A model generated the notes under the pieces. That model was not told where the DNA came from. It searched no databases and was given only the letters and a program-made list of their open reading frames with translations. 64,000 nt of DNA from Methanolobus tindarius DSM 2278 (GTDB lineage: Archaea; Halobacteriota; Methanosarcinia; Methanosarcinales; Methanosarcinaceae). Location: positions 434,001-498,000 of the forward strand of contig NZ_AZAJ01000001.1 in assembly GCF_000504205.1 (NCBI RefSeq), written 5' to 3'. The translations under genes were made by a program, and so were the position numbers. This document shows, piece by piece, positions 14,705 to 34,236 of the stretch. The stretch's first letter is position 1; the number at the start of each line of letters is the position of its first letter.

Positions 14705-15069
14705 GAATATGAATAAACCATATGCAATAAAAGTAATTTGTTACGGCTAATGCAAATATACATAGCTCTGTTGGAATAGTCTGAAAGTTACAACGTGAAT
14801 AATACAATCAAAAACCGAATTATTGTAACTATACGTTTTGTTGTATATTTCAAATTTGAAATATCAAATAGCACGCACTTAAATAAACCATAAGAAAAAA
14901 ACATAAAATGATTACACATGATTAGTCCTAATTTGTAAGCCATACATAAGTATGAACAGTCACACATTTCAAGAATAAGAGTATGAATATGTAATCATAA
15001 ACTCAAAGTTCAACTAACATCAGTTGAATTGGCAATAATACAAAAACATACCAGTATGAAAAAAGAAAA
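14705..15069. other. Intergenic region with a perfect 20-bp palindrome
   Basis: 365 AT-rich bases without a convincing gene. The notable element is a perfect palindrome at 14845-14864. Smaller CATAC/GTATG dyads occur near 14942-14955 and 15049-15060. Confidence 0.5.
14845..14864. repeat. Perfect 20-bp palindrome
   Basis: The sequence ATATTTCAAATTTGAAATAT is exactly self-complementary. It lies about 140 bases upstream of the unknown gene starting at 14704 (minus strand). It could be a dimeric regulator site. Chance symmetry in AT-rich DNA is the alternative. Confidence 0.4.
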
Positions 15070-15597
15070 TCAGTAGGTGTTGCGGTTGCGACCCTGTTCT
15101 ATAGACATTTTCAGGACTTCTGGTTCCCGGGACCCCAGCATAAGGCGCTTCCCATTTCTAAATTCAATCATCAGACCCTTGTTACCACTTATATTGTAGG
15201 CTTTGCCGTTTCGACCATACCTTATACCCCACCCACCATAATCCCTGAGTGGTCTATATCTCACAGCTTCAGCGGACAGTATATCGCTGAAAGGAAAATG
15301 CCTGAATGAAAGATGGAATGGGAAAAACTTCACGTAAAGACCGCTGTTGCGCACAACAACCACAAGACGGATGGACAGCATGAAAATAGGGAAAATAACT
15401 CCCATACCAATAAGGATTGCTATCATTCCTTCATCAGATGCAGGATTGCTGCCAAAAGGGCGGCCATACACAAGCTGTTCTATAGCGCCGTACCATGTCA
15501 TCCCTGTGGTCACAAGTAATAATGCCAGTAACCATATTTGCCTGAATTTCTGTACTTCCCTGAATATGACAGAGTCTGCAGAACCATCGTAAGTCAT
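15070..15597 (-). CDS. Membrane protein with two N-terminal TM helices and PH-like domain
   Basis: About 175 residues from the ATG at 15597 (two TTG codons precede it). Two hydrophobic helices (about 22-45 and 60-85) are followed by a cytoplasmic beta-rich region with the charged GLYVKFFPFHLSFRHFPF segment and GGWGIRYGRNGKAYNISG, ending in IEFRNGKRLMLGSREPE. This layout resembles small bacterial-PH-like (DUF6141-type) membrane proteins, whose function is unknown. It is divergent from cutA with about 65 bases between the starts. Confidence 0.65.
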   Translation of the reverse strand: MTYDGSADSVIFREVQKFRQIWLLALLLVTTGMTWYGAIEQLVYGRPFGSNPASDEGMIAILIGMGVIFPIFMLSIRLVVVVRNSGLYVKFFPFHLSFRHFPFSDILSAEAVRYRPLRDYGGWGIRYGRNGKAYNISGNKGLMIEFRNGKRLMLGSREPEVLKMSIEQGRNRNTY

Positions 15598-17257: not shown

Positions 17258-17962
17258 ATGCGGATAATGAAAGAACGCAATTCTGATGTCGCAGTCACGT
17301 GGATAGAGAAAGGGCTTAGTGAGAAGGACCCTGAAAAGAAACTACATTATTTTGGTCTGGCACTTGAGCTTGATCCGAAAAACCCGGTGGCACTCAACAA
17401 CAAGGGCATGCTACTGTATAAGAAAGGGAAATTTCACGAAGCTATTGAGTGTTATGATAAAATACTCAAACAGTACAACATGTCCAGGTATCTTCCTGCT
17501 CTTTATAACAAAGCCCTGGCATTAAAGAAAATGGAACGTTTTGAGGCTGCACTTACTTTTATGAACAGGGCACTGAAACAGCAGCCAGACAATGATAAGA
17601 TTAAACTGCATGTCGAAAACCTTACACTAATTGTTGAAGGAAAAGAAGAAATAAAACCACGTAAAGAAACTCAGATTTCAATAGAGAAACTTGCTGTTAA
17701 CCAGGTTTACGTCCAATGGGAACCTCCTGCAGTAAGTACACTGCTTGCATATGAAATGAAATGCAGCCAGAAGGATATAAAATACTACAAAGGATTCGGG
17801 GAAGATCTTGTAAAGGAAAAGATTATTCAGGACAAACTCAACAGAAGAGCATATTGCTGTGGAACATGCCGATACCATAAAAATGAACTCTGCCAGCACA
17901 AGGACACTAAAGCAATGTCGATTTCTCTAAATGCCATATGCAGGAACTTCAGGCCAGAATAA
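17258..17962 (+). CDS. TPR-repeat protein with C-terminal cysteine cluster
   Basis: 234 residues. Tetratricopeptide repeats fill about 15-125 (ALELDPKNPVALNNKGMLLYKKGKFHEAIECYDKIL and the next unit ALYNKALALKKMERFEAALTFMNRAL). A C-terminal module of unknown type contains RRAYCCGTCRYHKNELCQH and AICRNF, with five cysteines and histidines that could bind zinc or an iron-sulfur centre. It is probably a protein-interaction scaffold with a metal-binding tail. ATG at 17267 is an alternative start. Confidence 0.75.
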   Translation: MRIMKERNSDVAVTWIEKGLSEKDPEKKLHYFGLALELDPKNPVALNNKGMLLYKKGKFHEAIECYDKILKQYNMSRYLPALYNKALALKKMERFEAALTFMNRALKQQPDNDKIKLHVENLTLIVEGKEEIKPRKETQISIEKLAVNQVYVQWEPPAVSTLLAYEMKCSQKDIKYYKGFGEDLVKEKIIQDKLNRRAYCCGTCRYHKNELCQHKDTKAMSISLNAICRNFRPE

Positions 17963-18012
17963 GAATGGATAAAAAATAGAAAATTAAAAGCAAAAATAAA
18001 TTGAAAAGGGTA

Positions 18013-19122
18013 TCATAGGACACCCAGATCTGTCAGACGCTCAGGAAGATACCTGTCCGTCACAAAATCCAGACCTTTTCCTGCAAAGGCCTGCTGTTCG
18101 GCTTTTTTGTTAATTTCAAGCTGGAGACTTATCTGCTCTTTCCAGTAATCGCTGGCAAACCTTGGATCTGTAAGCTCACTTCTCAGGGCTGCAACGTCCT
18201 TGTCTGTAAGCTTATCAGTGGACAGTTCATATTCCACAATATCAGAAGGTTGAACACCAACAAACTGAGCACCCGGTGTTGCCATATGCTCTGAAAGATG
18301 AGCACTTTTAATAGCACCATAAGCCACCGATGCAAAGATACGATATGACCATGGGTCACCATCAGTAAAGACTACTACAGGAATATTCATCTCCTCATTC
18401 ATCCTCTTGATGATACGACGCGTGGAACGTGCAGGTTGCCCTTTCAGGTGCACAAGAATGGCATCATTTCTTTCATCAAAACCATTCTCAATAAGCCTGG
18501 CATACATACCACCAGTCTCAACGGCAATGATGAATTTTGCATCCGTATCAAGGAATTCGATATTTTCAACGTTGAACGGAATCTGATAACCACTTTCACC
18601 TATGTCTTCCTGACAATGAATCACACGGTCTCCACGCTTCGTTTCTTCACGCAGACGGATAGGACCGAACATTGTTGCACCGTCTTCCTCAGGACGCATG
18701 TGGAAATATTCCCTCTGAAGACCGGAAATAATCTCAAGATCCTCGATGAGCCTGTCACTTTCAGGCTGTTCACGGAATTTTGCTATATCCCAGTTCTCTG
18801 AGATATAATACAACTCTCTTAAAGTAGACCCTCTATTCTGCCCCAGGTGGTTTTTCACCAGGAAATCTATAACATGGCTGGTTTTCAATAACTGGAAAGC
18901 ACCTTTTACAGTCTTTGCGCTTCTTTCGGTTTCCCTGTCACCATAAACCCATACATCACTATCTTCACTGTATTCTATGTTGGCTTTTGTACGACTGGGA
19001 AGAGATACACTCGGAACTACCTCATCAGTAAATTGATCATACAGTTCACCTGCAAGACCGAGTAAACGGCCTCTTGCAATCTCATCATGTTCTTTTTTCT
19101 GCGTAGAAAGATTATCTGCCAT
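18013..19122 (-). CDS. top6A: DNA topoisomerase VI subunit A
   Basis: The 369-residue Spo11-related cutting subunit. The catalytic tyrosine lies in [11 protein letters not shown] (Tyr 105/106). The Toprim domain includes ETGGMYARL and the metal-binding [23 protein letters not shown]. Together with Top6B it forms a type IIB topoisomerase that makes ATP-dependent double-strand breaks with two-base overhangs and relaxes or decatenates DNA. The gene begins 4 bases after the top6B stop codon, so the two subunits are translated from one mRNA. Confidence 0.97.
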
Positions 19123-19126
19123 TTAT

Positions 19127-20989
19127 TTACCCCCTGATAGCTTTTGCACCGGTAACAACTTCTTCATCAAGACCCTCCACTATCAAAGTGGGTAATTTTG
19201 CTATCTCAGCTTCACTGAGTGTTGCTACAGAGTAACTGAGGACTTTAGACGCACCTGGTGAAACACTTAGCTTCCATATATAATCAAAATCACTACCCAT
19301 GCTTATCACCTTGGGCTGCGGCACTGCATTTTCGATTTCAAAAGGCACCATATCATGTACATTGAAATTTTGTTTTTTACTGGTGTAATTCTTAGCCCTG
19401 ATAGAGATCTTTGCACCACCATTACCATCAGGTTCTACTATCCTGTCTACCAGAAGATTGCCCATGACCTTTGCAACCACAGGATTTATGTCAGGAACAT
19501 CGCGTTCAAGAGTTTCAGCAAGTTTGCTGGCCATTTTTGGCAGCACCTTTGTGATAATAACCTCTTTTTCACGCCTCTTTTTGAGATCATTACGTTTGTT
19601 AAGATACCTGTTCATCTTTCTGGCTACTTCTTTAATGGCAAGCTCTATCTCATCCCTTATTTCAGGAATTTCTGCCACAGCATCCTTGGATTCGGAAGTG
19701 AAAGGAACATTGGTTGATGCTACGTGAACTAAAATAACCACAGGACCTGTTGGAAGTCCTCCGCCTGGCTGGCTCAGACCATACTGCTTCCACTTAACAG
19801 ACTCAATCGCATGAGTGATAACACATCCACCTTGCTGATACAGGAGCGGAACCCTGTTGGCAAAACGCATGATATCCACACGGTCGTCTTTTTGGAGTTC
19901 ACCACCAAAGGCGATACCAACTTCAACAATAAAAGGATTACCTGAGAATACAGATGCGGTTCTGGTGGTTGTGGCTATGAAATCAACACTGAACTCCTTC
20001 TCAAGTCCTTTGTAGATAAGTTCCTCACCAATAGGAGAAAGACAATCTGTAGGTGGAGCCATTATCTTTACCCTGGAGAATGCATCCAGCAATTTACGGG
20101 ACTGGTCCCTTGTCATCTCATGCGGATCAAGTTCCGGGTCAAGTCCGGAGGCCTTGCATATTTCTTCTGCGGCAAGATGACCAATCTTTGAGAATGAGTA
20201 ACGCAGGAAGGGGGAAAGCTTCTGTCTTTCAGTATACCTCAGCATTTTCATCAGAGTACCAAGCTCAATACCATGCGGATGAGGCAGTATCTCTTTTGCA
20301 GGAACCGGAAGTTTGTCCGTGGCCCTTTCAAAAGTTTCCTGGTTTCCATCCGGTTCAATCAGGGTAATTCTTGCATGAGGATTCACGATTGCAGTGGCTT
20401 TCAGATACTCATAGATGGACTGGCGTCTTCCCTTTACATAGGAAGCTTCCATTTCCATTTCAATGCGAGTACCATGTGGCCTGTCCCAGTCTACCACATC
20501 ATCCCTGATAATCTCAGGATCGTTGGTACTGGTGTTTATCATTAACTCGTAATAGTGTGCAGGTTTTCCATGACCTATTTTAGACGTAATCTTTGTATGG
20601 TGACCTGATGTCAGTTGTGAATAAAGCACCGATGCCGATATACCTATACCCTGCTGTCCACGACTTTGTTTTAGAGCGTGGAACCTTGAGCCGTAGAGGA
20701 GTTTTGCAAAGACCTTTGGAATCTGCTCCTTGATGATACCAGGCCCGTTGTCTTCCACGATGATTACCACGTTGTCTTTGCCCGAGCGTTCTATATGAAG
20801 GAAAATGTCAGGAAGTATTTCTGATTCCTCACATGCATCAAGGGAGTTATCCACTGCTTCCTTGACCGTTGTTATTAGACTGCGCGGGGCTGAATCAAAA
20901 CCCAGAATTTGCCTGTTCTTTTCAAAGAACTCTGCAACGCTTATTGATTTCTGGTTTTTGGCAAGTTCTTCTGCAATTGGATTATCCAT
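19127..20989 (-). CDS. top6B: DNA topoisomerase VI subunit B
   Basis: 620 residues, ATPase subunit of topoisomerase VI. The GHKL ATP-binding fold shows the N-box [22 protein letters not shown] and [13 protein letters not shown]. The transducer follows with [31 protein letters not shown]-terminal extension of about 100 residues ([19 protein letters not shown]) is an immunoglobulin-like domain as in Methanosarcina Top6B. It is the first gene of the top6B-top6A pair. A minus-strand TATA-like TTTTTATATATTC lies near 21052-21064. Confidence 0.97.
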
Positions 20990-21052
20990 AAAAGTATCTT
21001 CCTCGTCCGTTATTGGTCACTATCCCTTGTGACCAGAAAACAATAACCACGA

Positions 21053-21064
21053 ATATATAAAAAT
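21053..21064 (-). promoter_or_regulatory. TATA-like promoter element of top6BA
   Basis: On the minus strand the sequence reads TTTTTATATATT, about 65-75 bases upstream of the top6B start, which would give a leader of about 40 bases. It is the only clear TATA box between top6B and the divergent side. Confidence 0.5.
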
Positions 21065-21164
21065 GTTTTTTCAGGATCATGGATACGTCTTTTCCATGAT
21101 CCCAGGTTTTGAGCAAATTATGCTACTTACAGTGATTGCATATAAATTAAAAGTGAAGTGAAAT

Positions 21165-21398
21165 CTATTTCAGCTCTGCACCCACAATTGTCTGGGTTGC
21201 GGTTACTGATTCTGTTTCACGTATAAGATCGACTATGCTGTTAAGATTGCCAAGGTCATCAACCTCAATAATCACAACAAAGTCATATTCTCCAAAAACG
21301 TGATAGATGTCCTTTATACCTTCTATTCTGTTGAGTTCGTTAAAAGCTGTCCTTTCACTACCTGGCAGCACATTAACCATAGTTACGCCTATTACCAT
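21165..21398 (-). CDS. Stand-alone Lrp/AsnC ligand-binding (RAM) domain protein
   Basis: About 78 residues from the ATG at 21398. An upstream in-frame codon at 21446 would add 16 unconvincing residues. The sequence MVIGVTMVNVLPGSERTAFN...VFGEYDFVVIIEVDDLGNLN...VTATQTIVG is the dimeric alpha/beta-barrel effector domain of Lrp/AsnC regulators without the DNA-binding helix-turn-helix. Such proteins assemble into ring-like oligomers, bind amino acids, and may modulate full-length Lrp proteins such as the one at 55708-56202. Confidence 0.85.
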   Translation of the reverse strand: MVIGVTMVNVLPGSERTAFNELNRIEGIKDIYHVFGEYDFVVIIEVDDLGNLNSIVDLIRETESVTATQTIVGAELK

Positions 21399-21524
21399 TT
21401 TATCACTTAGACAGAAGTAGGATACAAAGTATTTAGAAGTTTTCAATAATTCATTTGAGCCTCAGAAAAGCAGAAAATATCTAATAAATATAATCGACAT
21501 CAAGAGCCATGTTTCAAAAATCAC

Positions 21525-21541
21525 CTCATCATAATGATGAG
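21525..21541. promoter_or_regulatory. Palindrome upstream of the small-RNA candidate promoter
   Basis: CTCATCAT-A-ATGATGAG is a perfect 17-base dyad, ending about 10 bases before the TATA-like TTTATATA. This position suits an operator or activator site. Confidence 0.45.
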
Positions 21542-21554
21542 TATGAGAATAATC

Positions 21555-21562
21555 TTTATATA
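21555..21562 (+). promoter_or_regulatory. TATA box upstream of structured RNA candidate
   Basis: TTTATATA within AATAATCTTTATATACTAAG is a good archaeal TATA box. A start about 22-26 bases downstream would fall at about 21583-21588, exactly where the inverted-repeat structure begins. Confidence 0.5.
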
Positions 21563-21586
21563 CTAAGAATATCATACTAGGAATTG

Positions 21587-21650
21587 ATGAGCGGGTTATC
21601 CTCTTTTTGACAATAACCCCCACTCCCCAACCCGCTCATACTCCACTCCA
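21587..21650 (+). ncRNA. Candidate small regulatory RNA with competing stems
   Basis: An 11-bp perfect outer stem (ATGAGCGGGTT at 21587-21597 with AACCCGCTCAT at 21629-21639) competes with a 7-bp stem (GGGTTAT at 21593-21599 with ATAACCC at 21613-21619). The two share bases 21593-21597. The intervening strand is unusually C-rich (21617-21633), able to pair with G-rich Shine-Dalgarno-like sequences. A TATA box sits 25-30 bases upstream and CTTTTCT follows at about 21651-21657, where the transcript may end. No sensible open frame exists. Transcription is not shown; this is a prediction. Confidence 0.45.
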
Positions 21651-22206
21651 CTTTTCTGATACATAATATTAAAAATCAATCAGCTTGGGCTTTGTTTTTA
21701 AATATCCTCCAACCATTAGGGAAAAATCAATAATTATGACCGGATTTGTATGAACAAGCATACATATGAATACTGCTGATTTATAAAAATAACAGAGTAC
21801 TTTTTTCTTTAATGTTGCACAATTCATACAGAATAATACAACAATCCAAACAAAAGTAAATGATGATATTTCATCCATGCAGCAAATTTCATTTGAAAAC
21901 AGACATTACAAATCAATCGTTTATCTTATGGGGAATAATACATCTAGAGCTTTAGAATATGAAGCCTGTAAAATACAAATCAATAAACGACACCATCCAA
22001 CTTTACATAAAATAGTATTCAATTATAAATACAGAAATGATAAGATATAATTTAAAGTTGATTATTACATACGAATAATATAAAACATACATTAGAGAAT
22101 ATACCATAAAATATATTCAATTGATAGCAAATCCGCAGCCACGTGATAATCAACAGAAATATCAAAGATACAATCAGTCAATCAATCACGATTAAACCCA
22201 AAAAAC
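21651..22206. other. AT-rich intergenic region, no gene seen
   Basis: About 550 bases downstream of rfcL and of the RNA candidate. Open frames here are short and have no family resemblance. The only pattern noted is a TGTATGA-N4-GCATACA dyad at 21747-21764. Confidence 0.5.
21747..21764. promoter_or_regulatory. TGTATGA...GCATACA dyad (copy 1)
   Basis: TGTATGA-ACAA-GCATACA, one of four similar dyads in non-coding DNA of this window (others at 25699-25717, 33032-33051, 51157-51174). This copy is not next to a gene start. Confidence 0.35.
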
Positions 22207-23715
22207 TCAGAAATCAAATAATGTTTTTTGTGGTTTTGCTGCGACTTCCTTTTTGGCCGGTGCTGTTACTTCATCCTTCTTAGAGGAGTCATTCCCAAAA
22301 GCAGAATCTAATGAAGTATTATTAGAAGCTGGCAACTTATCAAAACTAAGTTGAGAAGGATCTTTCTTTGGTGCAGATTTTTGAACAAAAAATTCAGGTT
22401 CATCTGTGGGAATGAAAGCCTGACGCTTATACTGTGCATCATCATACAATGCCTGAAGCTTTTTTGTGACCTTCTTTGCCCCCAGCAGATGGAGCATTTC
22501 ATCCATATCCAGCCCAAGAACAGCCACAACATCAGCAGCATATTCATCTTCCAGAATAAGACGTGAATACATACCTGCCACCTCAAGACGTGAATAACGC
22601 ATTGATTCATTGCAATGAGAACCAATTTTAACAGCAATATTGTTCCTCATATTGCGCCTGGAACGCATTTGTCCCATCTTACGCCACAAAGATGGTGGCT
22701 GATATTTTACAAAACCTCCACGCACCCTGGTTTTAGAAACCACAGTCCCACCAGTCATAAGCATGCCTGCATAACGCCACATGCGATAGTTCTGGCGCCT
22801 GCGTACGCGTCCGAGGAAACGATCCGAGCGGGAAAGATAGGAATACACGGCAATAATATCAGGAGTGAGAGATTCCTCACCTTTGCCGGTGTATTGGTAT
22901 GGAAGATTTTCATCAACCCAGTGAATAAGATCCTCAGGAGTTTCATCGAGGTTATATGTTGCCTCCAGTGCGGAGGAAACATCCTTGCCTTTGAATATCC
23001 TTCCAACCACTTTGAATATGGACTCTTTGTTATCACGTTCAGACGTGGAAATATCCTCAATATTGATCTCGGTACGCCCCATTGCAATGGCCTGGAGATC
23101 ATTGACAGCACTTCTGAAATCACCATCCGCAGATTCAGCTATTTTCTCAATAACACCCACACCGCACATGATACCTTCCTGCGATGCAATTTTCTTTAAT
23201 GCCGGAACCATAGAACGGGATTGTACAGATCCAAATTTAAGTTCAAGACATAAAGAACGTACAGTAGATGAAAGACCGTAAACATCATTGGCTATCAGGA
23301 TAATAGGCTGACTGGCTTTCTTTATAACATCAACTATTGCACGTGCCCCGCCGCGGTCACTGTTACCGTGCAGATTATCAGCTTCATCAAGAATTATGAG
23401 TCTCTTATCAGACGTACCTGTAAGTGTTTTCATCGTAGATGCAGAACCTGCAACCTTTTCAATAACACCTGCAGTTCTCTGGTCACTGGCATTAAGCTCA
23501 ATGACTTCCCAGTTCATATCCCTGGCAAGAGCATGTGCAGACGAGGTTTTACCAATACCGGCCTGACCGTGCAATATTACTGCTCTTTTTTCAGGAGTGC
23601 CATATTCCCACTGCTCTCCCCAGTTCCTGAGATCATCTATCACTTTCTTGTGGCCAACTACATCGCCCAGTGAGACTGGCCTGTACTTCTCTGCCCATTC
23701 CATCTGCACAGTCAT
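22207..23715 (-). CDS. rfcL: Replication factor C large subunit (clamp loader)
   Basis: About 502 residues from the ATG at 23715; a TTG at 23727 is less likely. The AAA+ core shows [20 protein letters not shown], Walker [17 protein letters not shown], and Walker [14 protein letters not shown]. The C-terminal region is lysine-rich and ends PQKTLFDF, a PCNA-interacting (PIP) motif placed at the very C-terminus. With RfcS it loads the PCNA sliding clamp on DNA. It is divergent from mtxX, with about 87 bases between the two starts. Confidence 0.96.
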
Positions 23716-23802
23716 GTTATTACCCAATATTCAGGAAAAGTAATTAATGTTTGCACCACTTTGTTGTTCTGATTGATATTATTGATGGTAGAGGTATCAT
23801 CC

Positions 23803-24657
23803 ATGGGATCGAAAAGTACAGAAAATCTCCTGGGCCTTATAGAAAAAAGGGCATTAAAGAATCGGGCAAGAGTTGCCATAGGAGTACGCAACCCAAATCC
23901 CAAAATGCTGAAGAGTGCCAGGGATGCACACGTTGCAGGGTACGCACATGTGATGCTGGTGGGCAACAAAAAAGAAATCGAAGAGATAGGAACCGATCTT
24001 GAGATAGTTGGAACAAACGATCCAGAAAGAACCATCGGAGACCTGCTTAAATCCAGATATGTGGATGCTGCAGTTAGAGGTACGGCAGGAGCATCGCAAA
24101 CATTATCACACCTCAAAAAGATACTGAATCAGGAAAACCTTCACAGAATCGCATTGTTACAGACAAATGAAGGAACACCTTTTTTCATAGCGCCTGTAGG
24201 AATAGATGAAGGAAATGAACTGGCTGACAAAATTGATTTTATCAAACTTGGCGTGGAGTACATAAGAAGATTCAACATTGAGCCAGTCGTAGGAATCCTT
24301 TCCGGCGGGAGACTTGGAGATCTTGGACGTAACAGCCGTGTTGACCAGACGCTTGCTGAAGGAGACTTCATTGTAAATAGAATAAGAGAACAGGGAATAG
24401 AGGCAAAGCATTATACTATTCTAATTGAAGATGCAATTAAGGAGGCAAACTTCATACTGGCCCCTGACGGGATTTCAGGAAACCTGATATTCAGAACTCT
24501 TGTATTTCTGGGCGGAGGATACGGGTTTGGAGCACCGGTACTAATGGATGATTATGTATTTGTTGACACATCCAGAGTAGGCGGTCACTACACTAAGGCA
24601 ATAATGCTTGCCAGTGCACTGGTTGATAAAGAAGATACGAATACTAATGACCAGTGA
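23803..24657 (+). CDS. mtxX: MtxX family protein (methanogenesis marker protein 4)
   Basis: About 284 residues. I place the start at ATG 23803 (MGSKSTENLLGLIEKRA), because GAGGT lies 7 bases upstream; the open frame extends further 5' without support. The sequence matches the MtxX/marker 4 family, related to phosphate acetyl/butyryl transferases: RVAIGVRNPNPKMLKSA, GTAGASQTLSHLK, VVGILSGGRLGDLGR and FLGGGYGFGAPVLMDDYVFVDTSR. The family is almost restricted to methanogens and its reaction is unproven. It was once annotated as a methyltransferase. Confidence 0.93.
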   Translation: MGSKSTENLLGLIEKRALKNRARVAIGVRNPNPKMLKSARDAHVAGYAHVMLVGNKKEIEEIGTDLEIVGTNDPERTIGDLLKSRYVDAAVRGTAGASQTLSHLKKILNQENLHRIALLQTNEGTPFFIAPVGIDEGNELADKIDFIKLGVEYIRRFNIEPVVGILSGGRLGDLGRNSRVDQTLAEGDFIVNRIREQGIEAKHYTILIEDAIKEANFILAPDGISGNLIFRTLVFLGGGYGFGAPVLMDDYVFVDTSRVGGHYTKAIMLASALVDKEDTNTNDQ

Positions 24658-24771
24658 CAACAATAATTTATACAGGATGCATACAATCTAATTTATTAAA
24701 TACTTATTAAATTCATTTTATTCCATAGCAATAGTATTGCAACAATTAATAGTGCATAGGGAATGAGAGAT

Positions 24772-25536
24772 ATGGAAGCTGTACTGATAAAAGGAAAAAC
24801 AATTGCTTCTGCATGGTCTCAGCTGATCCGCGAGATCTATGAGAAGGGAGAGGAACATAAGCCGGACTATAAGACAATGACAAAGAGAGTTCATGCCACC
24901 ATATGTATTGAAGACGTGAACAATAATCAGGTTAGTCCTGCTGTACCCTTTGGAGAGAATCTTATAGCTAAATACAAGGAAGAACTTACAGAAGAATACG
25001 CAGACTGGTACAGTTCTCTTGAAGACGATGATAAGAGAAAATTTGACTACTGCTATGCCAAACAGTTATTCAGATACGGACAGGCAGCATATGACAGTGT
25101 AAATGCAAATGTAAGCAACCTGCGCCCAGGATCAAGGAGACATGTGGGCGTACTCTGGGAAAATGAAACACATATTCCTAAATTTGAAGACCAGCCCTGC
25201 TGGATTGCCTACAAGCTGGAACTATTGAATGACACGCAGGTGAGAATATACCTGCTTTACAGATCATGGGACGCTTTCGGAGGATTCCCGGCAAACATCC
25301 CGGCTATTGTCGAAGGATTTAAAAAAGTGTTCAAAGAACATGAACTTGACATCGAAATCGAATCACTTATTGCAACAGGATGGGATACACACATCTACGA
25401 CACTGACTTACAGGCAGTGGAAAAAATATTCAAAACAAATGAATTATGCCCATTATGTAAGTGCATAACTCCAAAACATTCATTCATCCAAACCACTAAA
25501 GGTAAGGCTTGCCCGGAATGTAAGAAATCCATGTAA
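24772..25536 (+). CDS. thyA: Thymidylate synthase, methanogen type, with C-terminal zinc ribbon
   Basis: About 254 residues from ATG 24772 (AGGGAATGAGAG precedes it; ATG 24763 sits too close to that site). The ThyA-like core has the catalytic Cys in FEDQPCWIAYKLEL (about residue 143), and SWDAFGGFPANIPAI for the nucleotide site. It should methylate dUMP, in methanogens probably with a tetrahydromethanopterin-type C1 donor. The tail LCPLCKCI...KACPECKK has two CxxC pairs and looks like a zinc ribbon appended after the enzyme domain. Confidence 0.9.
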   Translation: MEAVLIKGKTIASAWSQLIREIYEKGEEHKPDYKTMTKRVHATICIEDVNNNQVSPAVPFGENLIAKYKEELTEEYADWYSSLEDDDKRKFDYCYAKQLFRYGQAAYDSVNANVSNLRPGSRRHVGVLWENETHIPKFEDQPCWIAYKLELLNDTQVRIYLLYRSWDAFGGFPANIPAIVEGFKKVFKEHELDIEIESLIATGWDTHIYDTDLQAVEKIFKTNELCPLCKCITPKHSFIQTTKGKACPECKKSM

Positions 25537-25698
25537 TCTTACATTCATATTCTTTTTTAATGATCAAACATCCATCCTGATATCTCAATAACATGTTCAT
25601 TGCTTTAGTGTAACGTCTTTTGATCTCGTATTTATATAACAATCATACACAATAAGCAACAATCATAATTTTTAAAATATATATTAGTTAATTATATA

Positions 25699-25717
25699 TG
25701 TATGAAATATGCATACA
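25699..25717. promoter_or_regulatory. TGTATGA...GCATACA dyad just after a TATA box (copy 2)
   Basis: TGTATGA-AATAT-GCATACA overlaps the end of a TATATAT run (25693-25699) and lies 44-62 bases upstream of the ribbon-helix-helix gene at 25761. Bound protein here would block initiation. Autoregulation by that protein is an untested idea. Confidence 0.4.
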
Positions 25718-25760
25718 TTAATGTGATTCCACTAATCCGAGTTTCAGGGAGAGACATATC

Positions 25761-27596
25761 ATGAAAAGACTTACTATCAGCATGTCCGATGAGCTTTTTG
25801 ACAAACTGGACGTAATTGAAAACAAAAGCCTGTTCATCAGAAAGCTTATAGAAAGAGAACTTGACGCAGTGGATAATTTCTCTTCTGAAGAAGTTATTCC
25901 CTGGAGCGAAGGATTCAGTATTCTCAAAAAAGATGTTAATACAATATTCAGCCGACTTGAACAAATGGAAAACAAACTTGCAGGAATAAGCCCTGCACAA
26001 GAGAATGAACCTTTGATTCAGGAATCTTTAAACCCTCTTTTACAGGAAACTTCTGAACAAATACATGAACCACAGGATAATCTTGCACAGAATATTATCA
26101 GTCATGAAATTCCGGAACCTGTTGAACAAGTACTCGCTGAGGACATCGGCACTCAGAACATAAATGAAAATATTGGTGAAAATCATCCGGATATACCTGC
26201 CCCGGTTATGAATGGTACCGATATCAACATGGAAGATATGCGTGAAAATACCGGCAATGAACTTGAGATGGAGAGTTTCAAAACTGAAGATATGGGAATG
26301 ATTGAAACAGAAATCCCTGAACCAGCAGTAGCAACAAATATCCAGGAAACTGCCAACAATGCACCATCGATTGAAACCACTGAGCAGAACTTCAATCCGA
26401 TGGAAAATATCAGCGTAGAGGAACAGATAACTCCGAAAGAAAGTACAGTTTTAGTTGAAAATACGGAAGAAACATTTAACCCATCTATACCTGAAATGAA
26501 GAGGGAAAGTTCAGTAGATGCTGAAATTCCACACGAGCATAAACTCTCAGAACTGGTTGCAGAAAAAATACATAAGGAAACAGAAGTTGAAAACACTTCT
26601 TTAAAAGAAGCTGAAAAAAATCCTTTATTCATGCCCCCTGAAGGAGAAATGCAACAAACAGAGTTCCAGATGCCAGAATTGAAGCCACCGGAGCAAGAAA
26701 TGACACAACAGGAATTCCAGATGCCTGAATTGAAACCACTGGAGCAAGAAATGACACAACAGGAATTCCAGATGCCTGAATTGAAACCACCGGAGCAAGA
26801 AATAGCACAATCAGAGTTCCAGATGCCAGAATTGAAGCTGCCGGAGCAAGAAACGACACAACAGGAATTCCAGATGCCAGAATTGAAACCGCCGGAGCAA
26901 GAAGCAGAACAACCGGAGTTCCAGATGCCAGAATTGAAACCGCCGGGGCAAGAAGCAGAACAACCGGAGTTCCAGATGCCAGAGTTTAAGCCACCGGAAC
27001 AAGAAGCAGAACAACCGGAGTTCCAGATGCCAGAATTGAAACCGCCGGGGCAAGAGGCAGAACAACAGGAATTCCAGATGCCAGAATTGAAACCACCGGA
27101 GCAAGAAGCAGAACAACCGGAGTTCCAGATGCCAGAGTTTAAGCCACCGGAACAGGAGCTGGGACAAACGGCATTTGCGATGCCGGAGCTAGAAACATCA
27201 GGATCACCAGCAATGCCAGATACAAATGAAGCTGAGTTGGTTATGCCGGAAATGAAAGCACCTGAAATGCCGCCTATTGCCGGAGAATCGATGCCACCAT
27301 TTAATACAGGAACAGAAGCTGCACCTGAAATACAAACTGAAACAGCTCAGATGCAAGCATCAAAAGTTTCACCTGATGTAAATCAGAGTGCAGGGACTAA
27401 GCCGGACAAACTGGAAACCAATATTCTAATGTATATGCCACGCGGAGCTAAAGTTAAAAAAGAGATCATAAAGAGTCTGGTATCACGCCAGTTCAGTCAG
27501 GAAGACATTGACAGGAAGATACAGGAACTGGTTGCAAGAGAAATACTCATACTTAAGCAGGAAAATGGTGTTGAACAGCTTCACAGACTAAAGTAA
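25761..27596 (+). CDS. Ribbon-helix-helix protein with ten 17-residue repeats and a C-terminal wHTH-like domain
   Basis: 611 residues; no named family recognised. Residues 1-38 (MKRLTISMSDELFDKLDVIE...FIRKLIERELDAV) match a CopG/Arc-type ribbon-helix-helix DNA-binding fold. A short coiled coil follows (about 52-75), then a very acidic linker. Ten near-perfect repeats of the type EFQMPELKPPEQEAEQP occupy about residues 301-470. A compact C-terminal domain (about 550-611, MPRGAKVKKEIIKSLVSRQFSQEDIDRKIQELVAREIL) looks like a winged helix. GGGAG lies about 8 bases before the ATG. The layout suggests a DNA-tethered scaffold with an extended repeat spacer; function is unknown. Confidence 0.75.
   Translation: MKRLTISMSDELFDKLDVIENKSLFIRKLIERELDAVDNFSSEEVIPWSEGFSILKKDVNTIFSRLEQMENKLAGISPAQENEPLIQESLNPLLQETSEQIHEPQDNLAQNIISHEIPEPVEQVLAEDIGTQNINENIGENHPDIPAPVMNGTDINMEDMRENTGNELEMESFKTEDMGMIETEIPEPAVATNIQETANNAPSIETTEQNFNPMENISVEEQITPKESTVLVENTEETFNPSIPEMKRESSVDAEIPHEHKLSELVAEKIHKETEVENTSLKEAEKNPLFMPPEGEMQQTEFQMPELKPPEQEMTQQEFQMPELKPLEQEMTQQEFQMPELKPPEQEIAQSEFQMPELKLPEQETTQQEFQMPELKPPEQEAEQPEFQMPELKPPGQEAEQPEFQMPEFKPPEQEAEQPEFQMPELKPPGQEAEQQEFQMPELKPPEQEAEQPEFQMPEFKPPEQELGQTAFAMPELETSGSPAMPDTNEAELVMPEMKAPEMPPIAGESMPPFNTGTEAAPEIQTETAQMQASKVSPDVNQSAGTKPDKLETNILMYMPRGAKVKKEIIKSLVSRQFSQEDIDRKIQELVAREILILKQENGVEQLHRLK
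26661..27170 (+). repeat. Ten tandem 51-bp coding repeats
   Basis: Ten in-frame 51-bp units run without gaps inside the gene at 25761-27596. Each encodes EFQMPE(L/F)K(P/L)(P/L)(E/G)QE plus four variable residues. Several units are nearly identical at the DNA level (for example around 26922-27020 and 27024-27120), which points to recent duplication and possible copy-number variation. An eleventh, degenerate unit (AFAMPELETSG) follows. Confidence 0.95.
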
Positions 27597-27628
27597 AACC
27601 AGTAGTGATATCGGACTGGATGTTAACA

Positions 27629-27805
27629 TCAGATTAGGCCGGATCTTTCAGAAGACATTTCTGAAAAGATAATTCCTGATGAGCATTGTTTGCAAACATT
27701 ACGGGAAGTGTCAAAGCAACTACTGCAAACAAGCCTGCCGCATAGACTACATGTGTTCAGACCGGATACAGAACCACATATAGCACAAATACCCACTCTT
27801 TCCAT
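27629..27805 (-). CDS. Small zinc-finger protein
   Basis: About 58 residues from the ATG at 27805; an in-frame start at 27841 would add 12 residues. CAICGSVSGLNTCSLCGRLV is followed by CSSCFDTSRNVCKQC. The eight cysteines form four CxxC-like pairs, consistent with two zinc sites in a treble-clef or B-box-like fold. It probably acts as a nucleic-acid or protein-binding adaptor. Function unknown. It converges with the repeat protein gene. Confidence 0.6.
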   Translation of the reverse strand: MERVGICAICGSVSGLNTCSLCGRLVCSSCFDTSRNVCKQCSSGIIFSEMSSERSGLI

Positions 27806-27922
27806 TAAGGAATAGTCTTGTAATTTTAAATAAAAATCCATCGGTCAAGCATAAAAAAGAAAGAAAGAGCATATCTGTTAGGATCTACCCTGACACATTA
27901 TAATATAAAAATAAAAATGGCA

Positions 27923-29584
27923 CTATTCGATAATAGCACCCTTGTTCGCGGAACTTACAAATTTTCTGTACCTTGCAAGGTAACCGGTAACCTTCTTTTC
28001 CAACGGGACAAAAGTTTTCCTGCGCTCTGCAAGCTCTTCTTCAGATACCTTCAGGTCAAGTTTTCTTGCAGGAATGTCTATCTCGATTATATCGCCTTCT
28101 TTTACAAGACCAATGGGACCGCCTTCCTGTGCTTCAGGAGAGATGTGACCGATACATGGACCCCGGGTTCCACCGGAGAAACGACCATCTGTAACAAGAG
28201 CAACTTTATCGATAAGACCCATTCCGGCAATAGCTGATGTTGGAGATAGCATCTCACGCATTCCAGGACCACCTTTTGGACCTTCATAGCGTATAACAAC
28301 AACATCACCGGCAACAATCTTCTTGGCAAGGATTGCAGCCATTGCATCTTCCTCACTGTCAAATACCCTTGCAGGACCGCTGTGTTTCAGCATCTTAGGA
28401 TCGACTGCTGCTTGTTTTACAACTGAACCATCCGGAGCAAGACTTCCTTTAAGTACTGCAATTCCACCTTCTTCATGTATAGGAGATTCCATCGTACCCA
28501 TAATTCTTGCATTGAGTTTCGGATTTACAATGATAAGCTCTGATAGGTTATCCCCAACAGTCTTACCATTAACTGTTTTTTCATCAAGGTTAAGACTGGA
28601 CTGGAGCCTGGACATGATTGCCTGGACACCGCCTGCCCTTTCAAAGTCAAGCATGTAATTTTCTCCGCCAGGTTTGAGAGAGATAAGATGAGGAGTGCTT
28701 TTACTGAGCCTGTCAAATACATCAAGGCTAAGCTCAAGTCCAAAGGCATGGGCAATTGCAGGAAGGTGAAGTGTAGTATTAGTACTGCCACCGATTGCCA
28801 TATCTACCATTATGGCATTTTCAAATGACTTCATGGTGACAACGCTACGAGGATTAAGACCTTCATTGACCATTGAAACAATCCTTTCACCTGATTCTTT
28901 TGCAAGCCTTATTTTCTTAGCATCTGCTGCATGGGCAGTTCCACACCCTGGAAGACTCATACCAAGTGCCTCTGTCATACATGCCATGGTGTTTGCAGTG
29001 TACATTCCGGCACATGAACCGGCACCACTGCATGAACAGTCTTCGAGGAGCTTCAACTTTTCATCGGATACTTTTTCGGACTGGCATTCTCCAACTCCTT
29101 CAAATACAGATATGAGATCCCTTGGCTCATCATCAACATAACCCGGAATCATTGGACCGCCTGTAACCACAATTGCAGGAATGTCAAGGCTTCCTGCTGC
29201 CATAAGGTGACCGGGAGTAATCTTGTCACATGCTGTTATCATAACCATTCCATCAAGCTGGTGACCCTGAAGGACAAGCTCTATGGAATCTTCGATTGCC
29301 TCACGGCTTGGAAGGGAATATTTCATTCCTTCGTGACCCATGGCAATTCCATCACAAATACCTATAGTATGGAATTCAAATGGGACACCACCGGCACTTC
29401 TGATACCTGCCTTTACGGCCTCTGCAACTTTGTCAAGATGAATATGACCGGGGATGAGTTCATTCCTGGAGTTTACAACTGCAATGAACGGCTTTTTCAT
29501 TTCAGAATCTGTTACACCGGTTGCCTTCAAAAGAGAACGGTGAGGCGCGCGTTCGAGTCCTTTCTTTGTCTTGTCACTTCTCAT
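27923..29584 (-). CDS. ilvD: Dihydroxy-acid dehydratase
   Basis: 553 residues, full length. Converts 2,3-dihydroxy-isovalerate (or -methylvalerate) into the 2-keto acids of valine and isoleucine synthesis. Iron-sulfur ligands lie in [15 protein letters not shown] and [21 protein letters not shown]. The C-terminal [19 protein letters not shown] is typical. A minus-strand TATA-like TTATATATTCC at about 29648-29658 would give a leader of about 40 bases. No other branched-chain gene is adjacent. Confidence 0.97.
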
Positions 29585-30293
29585 TGGAAAACCTCGTTTG
29601 ATGCATTCACAGCATGCTTACAACTAATATAGGTAATGGAAAAAGGAATATATAAGAAGTGTGTGCCGCCAAAACATTGGAAATGTGAATATTCAAATAC
29701 AACAACAAATGCTAACCGCTTTTAATACGCATAATACTAAAGCATAATATACCCTATCATGAAGATATTTATGACATATTGTGTGCATACAAATATGAAT
29801 AAGCTTACAGATTTTCATATAAATCATACATATTGTATTCTTTAATAGCGGACATAATATTACATGTATGCAGCATCAGTAATGAAGAATTCAGTAAGTG
29901 TATCGTTAATAGACTCAAAATAGAATTGCCACCGTACTAAGCAGATTTGTCAATAATTTCATTTTGCAATTATAATCCTGACATCCTCAATTTGAACAGC
30001 AATTCAACAACAAAAGACATAGTTGAAAACTGTTTTGTTTAATCCACTATATACTGACCGTCTGATTAAATATGCTTAAAGACCTATAGGACATCATATT
30101 GGAAATTGATGGGAAATATACACAACCATGGAAAAACAGCAACCGTAAGCACACCAATAAAACAAATATATTAGAGAATAGATACTTGCATATATACAAA
30201 GTAATAGATACATTATATCCAATATAATGCAATAAAGATAATATTTTGTACACATATTAATCTGATTTTTTAGTAAAAAACAAGAAGAGAAGC
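29585..30293. other. Long AT-rich intergenic region
   Basis: About 700 bases between divergent ilvD and the radical SAM gene. Apart from the ilvD TATA element near 29650, I see no gene, tRNA or strong dyad. Small open frames here are AT-driven and hydrophobic. Confidence 0.5.
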
Positions 30294-31970
30294 ATGAGAG
30301 CAGTAATAATTGACGGATATGTGGACGAGCCGGCATGTTTCGGAGTTCCACCTTACATTTCCCCATACATCAGATACATAGCAGGTGCCTTAAGAGAAAA
30401 CGGATTTCAGGAAGAAAATATAGCATATTTTACAATTGATAATCTGCGCAAAGATATCACCGAGGCACCCAGACTCATAAATCGGGCAGACATAGTTGTA
30501 GTTCTTGCCGGTATGACAGTTCCAGGCAAATACCTGCGTTCAACACCTATCAATTTAGGCGAGATAGAAAGCATATTCAGTGCCACCAATGGAACTAAAA
30601 TACTGGGAGGACCCATCAGGCTTGGTTTCTCGCTGGAAGGTGGAAAGAAAGCTGAATGTGATATTATAACTAACACAGATGTGTGTATTTCAAGCAAGGA
30701 CATAGAGGCTTTTGTCTTTGATACAACAGGAGACAGTGCACAGTCTCCGGAAGATTTTGAACATCGATTCAGAACCGTTGAAGAGATAGGAAGATGGAGT
30801 ACAAAAGGCAGTTTTATTATCAAAAAACATCCGGATTATCCTAATGTGATGTGTGAAATTGAAACATACAGAGGTTGTGGACGTAAGCAGCACTGTTCAT
30901 TCTGCACGGAACCATCATACGGAAGCTCGGATTACCGGCCAATTAAGGATGTCGTATCAGAAGTTTCAGAACTCTATAAACACGGTGCAAGGTTTTTCAG
31001 AATAGGAAGACAGCCTGACATTCTAAGCTATCATGCAAAGGACAAAGGAGGAGAAATACCTGAACCTGATCCACAGGCCATACATTCCCTGTACAAAGGA
31101 ATCAGAAACGTTGCGCCCGATCTGAAAGTACTCCACATGGATAATGCCAATCCAGGAACAATTGCAGCTTATCCAGAACTAACCAGGGAGATTTTTAAAA
31201 CCATCGTAAAATATCATACACCGGGAGATGTGGCGGCACTTGGAATGGAAAGCGCGGATCCTGAAGTAGTAAGAGCTAATGGTCTTAAAGCAATGCCTGA
31301 GGAAATATATGAAGCTATCAAAATCATTAATGATGCAGGAAGAAGCAGAGGAGTTAACGGAATGCCTGAACTCCTCCCAGGAATCAATATTGTTCACGGA
31401 CTTATGGGAGAATCAAAAAAGACATTTGAACTAAACTACGAATTCCTCAAGAAAGTTCTTGACGAAGATCTTCTCCTTCGAAGAATAAATATACGCCAGG
31501 TGATGGCATTTCCAGGCACCCGCATGTATGGGAATGACGAACTTGTAAGAAAGCACAAGCAGATATTCCTGAAATATAAGGAAAAGATCCGAAAAGAAAT
31601 CGATATGCCAATGCTCAAAAAAATAATTCCTGCAGGTACTGTACTCAAGAACCTGATGTGTGAATTAAATAGCGAAAGAATTTGTTTTGGCAGGCAGATG
31701 GGATCATACCCCTTGCTTGTAGGAATTCCCGCAAATCAGGAACTTGGAAAGTTCATAGATGTTACAGTAACAAGACATGGCCACCGATCCATTACAGGAA
31801 TACCATATCCACTGAACATCAACACTGCTTCAATGTCACTTTTACAGGAACTGCCAGGAATAGGTAAGAAACAAGCCAATCTTATCAATAGGGAAATGCC
31901 TTTTAAAAACGCAGAAGATTTTGTTGATAGGACAGGAAAAGAAGAATTACTTCCATACATCGGCTTCTAA
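30294..31970 (+). CDS. Radical SAM protein with C-terminal helix-hairpin-helix domain
   Basis: 558 residues. An N-terminal cobalamin-binding-like/Rossmann region (about 1-185) precedes the radical SAM core, whose cluster motif is [19 protein letters not shown], spaced C-x5-C-x2-C instead of the usual C-x3-C-x2-C. The core continues with [13 protein letters not shown] and LHMDNANPG. The last 60 residues ([25 protein letters not shown]) form a helix-hairpin-helix motif that usually binds DNA or RNA. The architecture matches the archaeal COG1031-like family. The substrate is unknown; nucleic-acid modification is a reasonable guess. Confidence 0.88.
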
Positions 31971-31974
31971 AAGC

Positions 31975-33003
31975 CTATTTCAGGAAGTTCTTGATAAAAT
32001 CAGTATCCTTCAAAATCTTGAAACTAACAAAACCACCTACGCAAATATTCATATAGAAAGTGAAAGCCCTCCAGGCAATTACTGCAATTCCAAGTAATGA
32101 TGACGGAATGAAAAGAGAAAAAGCAGTTGTTCCTGCAAACTCAGCAACTCCGCTTGCACCCGGAGTTGCAGGTATGACAAGTAAGACCATAACTATAATC
32201 TGTGATGCAAAGACTATGAGCGGATCAGGGTGCTGGTTAAGACCAAGCAATATCACATAAAGCATGGAGAAATCTACAAACCAGAAGACTATTGTGTATA
32301 AGACTCCAAAAGAAAGCCCACGCCTGCCATCAGTTAGCAATATTGAAATGCTGTCATGAAAATGCTCAAGCTCAGAGTCAACTCTTTTTATGATTTTTTC
32401 TAATGCAGCATCTGTTTTCCTTCCCAAAAACGGAGCCATCCTCTTTACAACAAAATAAACTACATTTTTAGTTGGATCTGGTTTCCATATAGCATACAAG
32501 GTAAGAAACAGTATGAAAGTAAGACCTAATTCTGCAAAGATAAACATGGCATCAAAAACAGAATCATTGAGAACACCGCGTATGACATATATGGAAACTG
32601 GTGCTAAAGCGAGGATAAGTATGCCATCAAGTATTCTCTCCCCAAGAACAACAGCTGTGGCTCTTCCTAGTGGAATCTTTTCTTCATGAAGGAGGTGGAT
32701 TCTTAAAGGCTCACCACCTAAAGAAGAAGGCGTGATAGATGCTGCCAGAGTACCTGATGTTACTATTTCACAAGCTTTAGTATAGCCAACATCAAAACCA
32801 AGTGCTTTACAAAGTGAACGTGTACGCATACCCCATACTACATAGCTAAGAGCATGTACGCATGCAGCAGCTAAGATATAAACAGGTTTTATCTGCATAA
32901 GGGCAGACAAAGTATTTGAATCAAAAGTAAATGCAACAACGATCAAACCCGATACAAGACTTATTAGTAAAGATATGAGAATCCATTTCTCAATTTTATT
33001 CAT
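31975..33003 (-). CDS. Flippase-like membrane protein (AglD/UPF0104, LPG-synthase TM family)
   Basis: 342 residues with about eight transmembrane helices and the family motif TPSSLGGEPLRIHLL (about 95-112) and IPATPGASGVAEFAG near the C-terminus. Relatives include the TM domain of MprF/lysylphosphatidylglycerol synthase and haloarchaeal AglD. They act in lipid-linked sugar or polar-lipid transfer across the membrane. Next upstream on the same strand is a sugar nucleotidyltransferase, which supports a role in glycosylation or cell-surface assembly. The stop is only a few bases from the convergent radical SAM gene. Confidence 0.85.
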   Translation of the reverse strand: MNKIEKWILISLLISLVSGLIVVAFTFDSNTLSALMQIKPVYILAAACVHALSYVVWGMRTRSLCKALGFDVGYTKACEIVTSGTLAASITPSSLGGEPLRIHLLHEEKIPLGRATAVVLGERILDGILILALAPVSIYVIRGVLNDSVFDAMFIFAELGLTFILFLTLYAIWKPDPTKNVVYFVVKRMAPFLGRKTDAALEKIIKRVDSELEHFHDSISILLTDGRRGLSFGVLYTIVFWFVDFSMLYVILLGLNQHPDPLIVFASQIIVMVLLVIPATPGASGVAEFAGTTAFSLFIPSSLLGIAVIAWRAFTFYMNICVGGFVSFKILKDTDFIKNFLK

Positions 33004-33031
33004 GACCCCAACCCTGCATAAATGTGTGATG

Positions 33032-33051
33032 TGTATGAATCAATGCATACA
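33032..33051. promoter_or_regulatory. TGTATGA...GCATACA dyad (copy 3)
   Basis: TGTATGA-ATCAAT-GCATACA, extended by one complementary base on each side (33031-33052), lies 28-48 bases upstream of the flippase-like gene. It is the most symmetrical copy of the motif. Confidence 0.4.
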
Positions 33052-33084
33052 CAATCAATACTATATAATCACAATCAACGAAAT

Positions 33085-34236
33085 TCATTCACCAAGCATA
33101 TCTTCTTTTACACTTGTCCCTGTGGAGATAGATCTTTTTGGCCAGATCCTCACGTTAGAGTGAACTGTAACATCATTTTCGATATTGACTTCCGGACCAA
33201 TAACAGTTCCATTTTCAAGACTACAGTTGTCACCTACAACAGTACCATTATCAATAATAGAACCGGAAACATTTGAATTATGCCCTATTGACACGTTATT
33301 GAACATATAAGAAGATAATATTCGAGTATCATTGTTGATGGTACAATTGGAACCTATTGCCGTATATGGTCCGATAAGAACGTTATCACCTATAGTCGTA
33401 TTTTCACCAATAACTATAGGACCCACAATCGCAGAATTGGACCCGACAGTCACGTTATGACCAAGAGAAACAGGACCTTTTATACGGGCATCCAGTGTTT
33501 TAAAATGACCTTCAATTGTAGTACCGGGGAGTGACTCCAACATCCAGCGTTGTGCCTGCCTGTAAGCCTGTGGGCTTCCAACATCAGTCCATCTGCCCCT
33601 GGCAAGAATACCGTTTATCTTCCGTTTTTTCTCAAGTATATCCGGGAAAAGATCCTTCGCAAAATCATATTGTTTGCCTTCTGGAATCCAGTCAAATATT
33701 TCCGGATCACATACATAAATACCTGTACTTGCAAGATTACTGAATATTTCACCGGGTCCTGGTTTTTCAAGGAAACGTCTGATCCTGTTATTCACATCCA
33801 TATCTGCGATACCGAATTCACGAGGATCATCGATGGATAAAAGCCCGATTGTTACAAGTGCATCCGTCATTTCATGGAACCTGTACATCTCCCTTAAATT
33901 CAGGTTGAGTACATGATCGCCTCCAAGAACTATAAACGGACTGTCACGAAGATATTCCTCTGCATTCTTAACGCCTCCGGCAGTCCCAAGTTTTTCATCT
34001 TCATAAACATAATCGATATGGACTCCGAATATTCTCCCATCACCTAACTGCTCCTCGATTTTTTCAGCCATATACCCGAGGGTTATTACAATATCGTTGA
34101 AACCTTCTTTTGAAAGGTGTTCTATTAAATGTACAACAGACGGTTTGTTAAGAATAGGAATACTTGGTTTTGGACGGGCAAAAGTTAAGGGACGAAGCCT
34201 TGTCCCCTCTCCACCACACATAATACAGGCTTTCAT
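33085..34236 (-). CDS. Sugar-1-phosphate nucleotidyltransferase (GDP-mannose/dTDP-glucose pyrophosphorylase-like)
   Basis: 383 residues. The N-terminal nucleotidyltransferase domain (1-235) has the signature KACIMCGGEGTRLRPLTFARPKPSIPI, followed by LGGDHVLN with the metal-binding Asp. The C-terminal third (about 255-370) is a left-handed beta-helix of hexapeptide repeats (GHNVTVGSNSAIVGPIVIGE). It activates a sugar phosphate as an NDP-sugar for glycan synthesis. Sequence alone does not distinguish mannose from glucose. Probably acts with the downstream flippase-like gene (82-base gap). Confidence 0.9.
   Translation of the reverse strand: MKACIMCGGEGTRLRPLTFARPKPSIPILNKPSVVHLIEHLSKEGFNDIVITLGYMAEKIEEQLGDGRIFGVHIDYVYEDEKLGTAGGVKNAEEYLRDSPFIVLGGDHVLNLNLREMYRFHEMTDALVTIGLLSIDDPREFGIADMDVNNRIRRFLEKPGPGEIFSNLASTGIYVCDPEIFDWIPEGKQYDFAKDLFPDILEKKRKINGILARGRWTDVGSPQAYRQAQRWMLESLPGTTIEGHFKTLDARIKGPVSLGHNVTVGSNSAIVGPIVIGENTTIGDNVLIGPYTAIGSNCTINNDTRILSSYMFNNVSIGHNSNVSGSIIDNGTVVGDNCSLENGTVIGPEVNIENDVTVHSNVRIWPKRSISTGTSVKEDMLGE

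Follow-up and report, generated by a model that had tools for sequence, protein, structure and literature searches.

The 64,000-nucleotide stretch of DNA analyzed here (the window) encodes a 611-amino-acid protein in which a probable N-terminal ribbon-helix-helix (RHH) domain of the CopG/NikR type is joined to a C-terminal winged helix by a coil and a long, acidic, repeat-bearing arm. We are inclined to regard it as the Methanolobus form of an RHH-coil-winged-helix protein that would be autoregulated, act at multiple sites, and carry a long multivalent arm with a protein-binding tip. Its architecture and orthology, the existence of a compact form, the turnover of the repeats, and the conserved, phased sites near the gene can be read directly from sequence comparisons. 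The open reading frame (ORF), the product of which begins MKRLTISMSDELFDKL, and its parts are as follows.

25761 to 27596, + strand: ORF encoding RHH domain, coil, acidic repeat arm, and winged helix, 611 amino acids, with orthologues found
25761 to 25874, + strand: RHH domain, residues 1 to 38
25902 to 25985, + strand: predicted long helix or coiled coil, residues 48 to 75
25989 to 27395, + strand: acidic, proline-rich linker (arm), residues 77 to 545, net charge −84
26657 to 27151, + strand: 51-bp (17-residue) tandem repeats, 9.7 copies (Tandem Repeats Finder)
27408 to 27593, + strand: C-terminal winged helix, residues 550 to 611

This layout bears out the sequence-only reading, which had proposed an RHH domain, an acidic coil, repeats, and a winged helix for the same ORF; its "acidic coiled region" corresponds to the predicted helix at residues 48 to 75, followed by the acidic linker (net charge of −84 over 469 residues). 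Comparison of the whole protein with Pfam and NCBIfam yielded no useful family, and no description of an RHH domain combined with a long arm and a winged helix was found in the open-access literature on Methanolobus, the Methanosarcinaceae, or archaeal RHH proteins. The parts are of known kinds; their combination appears to be new.

The proposed RHH N-terminus was supported through relatives of the protein: 8 of 22 family members matched Pfam RHH_1 (best E value, 3.6e-4), though the window protein alone fell under the cut-off (E = 0.22). Helices are predicted at residues 10 to 17 and 22 to 41 of this head. A Foldseek search with the head model returned a single match (E = 5.8), a nearly empty result of the kind expected for an intertwined dimer that was modeled as a monomer. 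The best match of the head among solved structures was NikR (E = 0.34, not significant by itself), to which it aligns at R3/T5/T7, with R3 and T5 present and S7 in place of T7; NikR reportedly contacts its half-site through R3, T5, and T7. The NikR model covers only residues 1 to 33 (E = 0.054; 13.5 bits versus a cut-off of 83).

The region upstream of the ORF contains two candidate TATA elements, both called from sequence only, and an operator-like element.

25672 to 25681, + strand: candidate TATA element TTAAAATATA
25692 to 25700, + strand: second candidate TATA element TTATATATG
25699 to 25728, + strand: operator-like element, TGTATGAAATATGCATACA plus a degenerate third half-site

The dyad at 25699 to 25717, which the sequence-only reading had singled out, is real and likely to be an operator, being conserved across Methanolobus. 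Its form GTATG-N7-CATAC occurs once in the window versus 0.03 occurrences expected, and a block around TATATATGTATGA-N-TATGCATACA is common to all 22 Methanolobus promoters examined. The strict element, GTATGA-N4/5-[TG]CATAC, is present in 19 of these, with one mismatch in the other three (L063, L069, and L101), and occupies the same place in all five loci examined from genera g2 and g14 (L083 and L087 to L090). It is absent from the promoters of 14 loci of g7, g10, g11, and g12; the heads of g11 and g12 have the same strand residues (KRLTIS), yet their promoters lack the strict GTATGA element, which counts against the RHH domain as the binder of these sites. When the 19-bp pattern was searched with zero or one mismatch, this promoter was the only location in six of seven Methanolobus genomes; the G044 promoter element is a version one base shorter. 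The distance from the TATA element to the transcription start site is 19 to 22 nt in M. psychrophilus (PMC5378194, in excerpt). Applied to the TATA candidates, this distance predicts a start that coincides with the dyad, falls within it, or follows it closely, so occupancy should repress transcription. Autoregulation mediated by the RHH domain is, in our judgment, highly probable.

The E. coli NikR operator is GTATGA-N16-TCATAC (PMC7055735, available part). The likeness to NikR thus comprises both the strand residues of the head and the half-site GTATGA/TCATAC, but the half-sites here are N4/N5 rather than N16 apart, the match ends at the head, and the arm and winged helix stand in place of the C-terminal nickel-binding domain of NikR. 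Another regulator, e.g., a true NikR, could be the owner of the sites.

Further copies of the element lie in other intergenic regions of the window.

21748 to 21763, + strand: second inverted repeat GTATGAACAAGCATAC, in the Lrp-RFCL intergenic region, 4 kb upstream
29585 to 30293, no strand assigned: ilvD-radical SAM (rSAM) intergenic region with half-sites
51158 to 51173, no strand assigned: perfect inverted repeat GTATGATATTTCATAC, upstream of a TspO/MBR gene

The shorter inverted repeat was found at 20 distinct places in seven Methanolobus genomes. Seven of these are the promoters of the gene itself; of the remaining 13 exact sites, 7 lie within 30 kb of the gene (approximately 2% of the genome). 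Three positions recur: the Lrp-RFCL intergenic region, the region upstream of TspO (about 25 kb away), and the ilvD-rSAM intergenic region, where there are three half-sites in the window genome and up to nine in other Methanolobus genomes. G058 and G064 have a single exact site each. The copy at 51158 to 51173 is matched by copies in G061 and G046. The inverted repeat is also conserved at G000:C1:732857 (L220) and G046:C1:2035423 (L221); in G000, it falls within a long interval that separates a cupin-like ORF from an ORF resembling a small multidrug transporter (names read from the sequence).

RHH dimers that bind side by side, as in Arc, MetJ, and CopG, need half-sites one helical turn apart. 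Half-sites (GTATG or CATAC) were counted against 100 dinucleotide shuffles. The counts exceeded the shuffle means in the promoters (79 versus 14.3; 22 regions), in the ilvD-rSAM regions (120 versus 39.3; 21 regions), and in the Lrp-RFCL regions (96 versus 32.5; 20 regions), the last count coming partly from a conserved RNA-like element; since the regions compared from different species are orthologues of one another, the site counts are not independent. Pairs 8 to 12 bp apart numbered 28 versus 0.17 in the promoters, 24 versus 0.53 in the ilvD-rSAM regions, and 12 versus 0.49 in the Lrp-RFCL regions. The promoters and ilvD-rSAM regions of 12 loci from g7, g10, g11, and g12 contained nine half-sites and no pair 8 to 12 bp apart. 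A 380-kb background from the same genome yielded four pairs, none of them convergent, versus five pairs, three of them convergent, in the 64-kb window. Half-sites cluster as densely as eight in 200 bp in L076 and nine in L101. A three-half-site pattern was dropped as a genome-wide statistic, since the reversed pattern is the same pattern and the control was therefore void.

Two other observations concern these noncoding regions. The densest half-site cluster of the window (five in 200 bp) is at 14941 to 15141, away from the gene; it includes one divergent-type pair and was scored as noncoding. At 21580 to 21670, in the Lrp-RFCL intergenic region, a strong hairpin (stem of approximately 11 bp; z = −4.71) lies behind a TATA-like box and is nearly identical in L066. 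It is probably an unannotated small RNA; an Rfam search of positions 19000 to 34000, which include the hairpin, returned no match.

The protein is conserved well beyond one strain. The C-terminal domain (tip) was matched in 59 of 111 family genomes and the head in 55 of 111 (E ≤ 0.01), mostly in one ORF. By genus, the tip was found in g1 (Methanolobus; 27 of 27 genomes), g2 (1 of 2), g3 (1 of 1), g7 (9 of 11), g10 (7 of 8), g11 (6 of 6), g12 (3 of 3), and g14 (5 of 7), and in no genome of g4, g5, g6, g8, g9, or g13 at the same threshold. Searching 237 genomes of the class with the tip profile added one further case, G185 (E = 9.2e-9), and when 392 genomes sampled evenly across the phylum were searched with the profile, nothing was detected outside the family. 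A1 matches in G075, G088, G160, and G172 (E = 0.002 to 0.008) were short and were not counted.

Gene order around the locus is also retained, i.e., RFCL, MtxX, (other genes), the gene itself, and IlvD follow one another across genera. The neighbors are RFCL, MtxX, usually the RING-like zinc protein, IlvD, and a radical SAM protein; a placeholder gene at 17900 to 19100 was left out because it contains stops.

23773 to 24657, + strand: MtxX-like gene, syntenic marker
24763 to 25536, + strand: thymidylate synthase-like gene, upstream neighbor
27629 to 27841, − strand: RING-like zinc protein, conserved downstream neighbor

In other genera, MtrA- and MtrH-type genes (mtxA and mtxH, by Pfam) lie between MtxX and the gene; in Methanolobus, the thymidylate synthase-like gene takes the place of mtxA-mtxH. 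Some methanogens are reported to transcribe mtxX, mtxA, and mtxH together as a single unit, and MtxX is described as a protein of unknown function (PMC3087415, in extract). The "MtxA" of PMC6855144 is, in the portion available, a different, generic enzyme. With a score of 81.6, the thymidylate synthase-like protein stays below the TIGR03283 cut-off of 174.55; it ends in a zinc-ribbon-like tail (CPLC...CPEC). The 70-amino-acid RING-like zinc protein adjoins IlvD even in genomes without the RHH protein.

The G185 orthologue, from another family of the same class, has 165 amino acids and consists of an RHH domain, a coil, and a winged helix, with no arm. Its gene starts 10 bp past MtxH, behind an mtrA/mtrH-type pair, and a search with this protein as the query gave separate matches to the family's heads and to its tips. 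The armless form suggests that the arm is a later elaboration; on these comparisons, the compact form would be ancestral, with the arm inserted or expanded later.

Two other archaeal RHH proteins were compared. CdrL of haloarchaea has an N-terminal RHH domain and a C-terminal double zinc ribbon and is encoded beside cdrS-ftsZ2, and chromatin immunoprecipitation (ChIP) showed a single reproducibly bound region (PMC7439475, in excerpt). Like CdrL as described there, the present protein is long and has an RHH domain at its N-terminus and a distinct domain at its C-terminus, but that C-terminal domain is a winged helix without cysteines rather than a double zinc ribbon. No ftsZ was found among the neighboring genes identified (RFCL, MtxX, thyA-like, RING-like, and IlvD). 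SegB is an RHH protein that is paired with SegA and has sites near its own gene, with the motif TCTAGA-S-TCTAGA (PMC12284271, available section); SegB and AspA are treated in PMC9178275 (likewise in part). An RHH protein with sites close to its gene is common to SegB, so far as described there, and the present case, but the motif here is GTATGA, and a SegA gene was not recognized among the immediate neighbors.

The arm has turned over rapidly. Tandem Repeats Finder reported a period of 51, 9.7 copies, 86% matches, and a score of 627 for 26657 to 27151. When units were picked by the core motif [MILVFA]P[ED][LFMVIK], 11 were found at exact 17-residue spacing, i.e., ten of the EFQMPE[L/F] type and one diverged, so the ten 51-bp repeats of the sequence-only reading were recovered together with an additional unit. 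Its proposal of recent duplication also held: the closest pair of units in the window is 98% identical in DNA (no fully identical pair is present), several other genomes contain identical 51-bp copies (e.g., seven pairs in L070), and unit similarity is 0.776 inside the window genome versus 0.61 to 0.73 between it and eight others. The identical copies and the higher likeness within a genome indicate that duplication is recent and continuing. Repeat number is far from invariant, ranging from 0 to 21 units across loci, and differs between two M. vulcani strains, PL 12/M (L063; 12 units) and B1d (L066; 7 units). Protein length ranges from 184 to 714 amino acids among 41 wide loci. The ORF of L073 is interrupted by a stretch of N within its repeats, and both halves were kept and marked but not treated as a full length; arm lengths exclude G003, G045, G049, G054, and G109, in which the two ends are on different contigs, as well as other family members without a wide locus.

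The core motif recurs well above chance, with 15 copies in the linker versus a shuffle mean of 1.04 and a maximum of 5 (300 shuffles), and it is far over shuffles in most Methanolobus. In L074 and L077, the units are only 31 to 34% identical in protein, and the core is still at 17-residue spacing; its conservation there follows by construction, since units were chosen by the core, but its number does not (8 and 15 copies versus shuffle means of 0.88 and 1.07). The core form [hydrophobic]-P-[E/D]-L recurs with a period of 17 and elsewhere of 18 or 31, a similar core having a period of 18 in L029 (g3) and a period of 31 in L082 (g11). Retention of the core in diverged units and the other periods in other genera favor a functional short motif. 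The excess of cores over shuffles is absent in L084 to L086, L091, L092, L098, and L100, so the motif is dispensable for the basic job of the family. In L095 (6264 to 8192), the arm of the orthologue bears an unrelated-looking repeat of the SLPDPLDSPLISDSVI type, apparently an independent expansion.

The tip is the best-conserved part of the protein. Its AlphaFold2 model (pLDDT, 83.8; 57 of 75 residues at ≥90) has the order H-H-H-E-E and agrees with the winged-helix-like domain proposed earlier. Foldseek matches were weak (best E = 0.026). After realignment, the first row was the P. abyssi Rpa2 winged helix (Z = 9.4; root mean square deviation, 3.1; 68 residues aligned); numerous DNA-binding regulators, as well as the tip of yeast Mcm5 (Z = 9.0), were tied with it to within 1. 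Searches by sequence pointed in the same direction, although neither the match to Rpa2 (E = 0.35) nor that to MCM5_C (E = 0.017; 10 of 41 members matched, the best with E = 0.0039) was significant. The winged helix of Rpa2 is likewise attached to an acidic linker and interacts with proteins (PMC11686378, in part). The tip shares its fold with Rpa2 and the MCM C-terminal winged helices but lacks an accompanying OB or AAA domain. It contains no cysteines and has no Pfam match. In winged helices, helix 3 is the usual recognition helix, and its charge relates to DNA binding. Here, helix 3 is net negative in 39 of 41 members (mean net charge, −2.5) and positive in none, so the basic recognition helix of MarR/BlaI-like winged helix-turn-helix domains was not found among these members. 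Conserved basic residues are instead at the start of helix 2, forming a patch with the loop between helices 1 and 2 in which K30 is invariant. The acidic helix 3 favors protein binding, and the tip probably binds a protein.

We propose that RHH dimers bind the GTATGA half-sites, with the spacing of about one helical turn making cooperative binding probable, and that protein bound at or just downstream of the TATA candidates would repress its own gene. The additional sites in nearby intergenic regions and at a few promoters elsewhere suggest that it may also mark or regulate nearby genes. Each dimer would hold out two long, acidic, presumably disordered arms, each bearing many copies of a putative short linear motif (hydrophobic-x-M-P-[E/D]-L-x-x-P) and ending in a winged helix more likely to bind protein than DNA; arm and tip together might recruit partners to the DNA-bound complex.

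A simpler reading is that of a plain RHH autorepressor, in which the work falls to the head, the arm serves as a tolerated spacer whose repeats grow and shrink by slippage, and conservation of the core reflects nothing more than the youth of the copies. The wide ranges of unit number (0 to 21) and protein length (184 to 714 amino acids), the existence of an armless compact form, and the greater likeness of repeats within than between genomes are as such a spacer would predict. It is nevertheless unlikely, given the core and 17-residue spacing kept by the diverged units of L074 and L077, the recurrence of the core with periods of 18 and 31 in other genera, and the conservation of the tip above all other parts. 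The bridge suggested by the sequence-only reading, in which the RHH domain and the winged helix both sit on DNA with the arm across the gap, draws on the many DNA-binding folds matching the tip at similar Z and on the basic patch with its invariant K30. These structural matches are tied between protein-binding and DNA-binding winged helices, and an acidic helix 3 in 39 of 41 members, positive in none, tells against a second DNA-binding end; we consider the bridge decidedly improbable.

By analogy with SegB-type segregation, the phased arrays might instead be a centromere-like cis-site at which the armed RHH protein tethers the region to a partner. The 7 of 13 nonpromoter exact sites within 30 kb of the gene and the dense clusters in L076 and L101 fit such an anchor, as does the ilvD-rSAM array of the window, which starts approximately 200 bp upstream of the ilvD start, off the core promoter. 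However, no ParA/SegA-type gene was recognized among the immediate neighbors, every site cluster is in a promoter-containing intergenic region, where regulation explains it equally well, and G058 and G064 have a single exact site, so we hold this reading to be quite unlikely. We give the same low weight to the bolder version, a novel type of archaeal chromosomal anchor or enhancer-like complex, with RHH domains on phased arrays around their own gene and arms of approximately 470 residues that bear many copies of a binding motif and a protein-binding winged helix; if true, it would turn one locus into a site of multivalent recruitment for factors of replication, segregation, or transcription. 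The gene lies directly downstream of MtxH in g2, g7, g10, g12, g14, and G185 (a 10-bp gap in the last), as a dedicated regulator of the mtxX-mtxA-mtxH methyltransferase genes might. Such a role is very improbable, since Methanolobus retains the protein without mtxA-mtxH at the locus, the Methanosarcina-like genus g13 has mtxXAH without the protein, and the best MtxH matches of Methanolobus (one per genome, in two pieces in G048) are 43 to 48% identical, versus 58 to 71% among the copies of other genera.

The preferred reading therefore remains that of an autoregulated, multi-site RHH protein with a multivalent arm and a protein-binding tip. We know of few archaeal regulators that pair two folded ends with a fast-evolving arm that keeps its motif. 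Here, a compact form and lineage-specific expansions of the arm are available for comparison, and the specificity of the predicted site allows it to be tested directly. Such work would show by what route a one-head regulator acquires a multivalent arm and whether an array of RHH proteins marks a methanogen locus.
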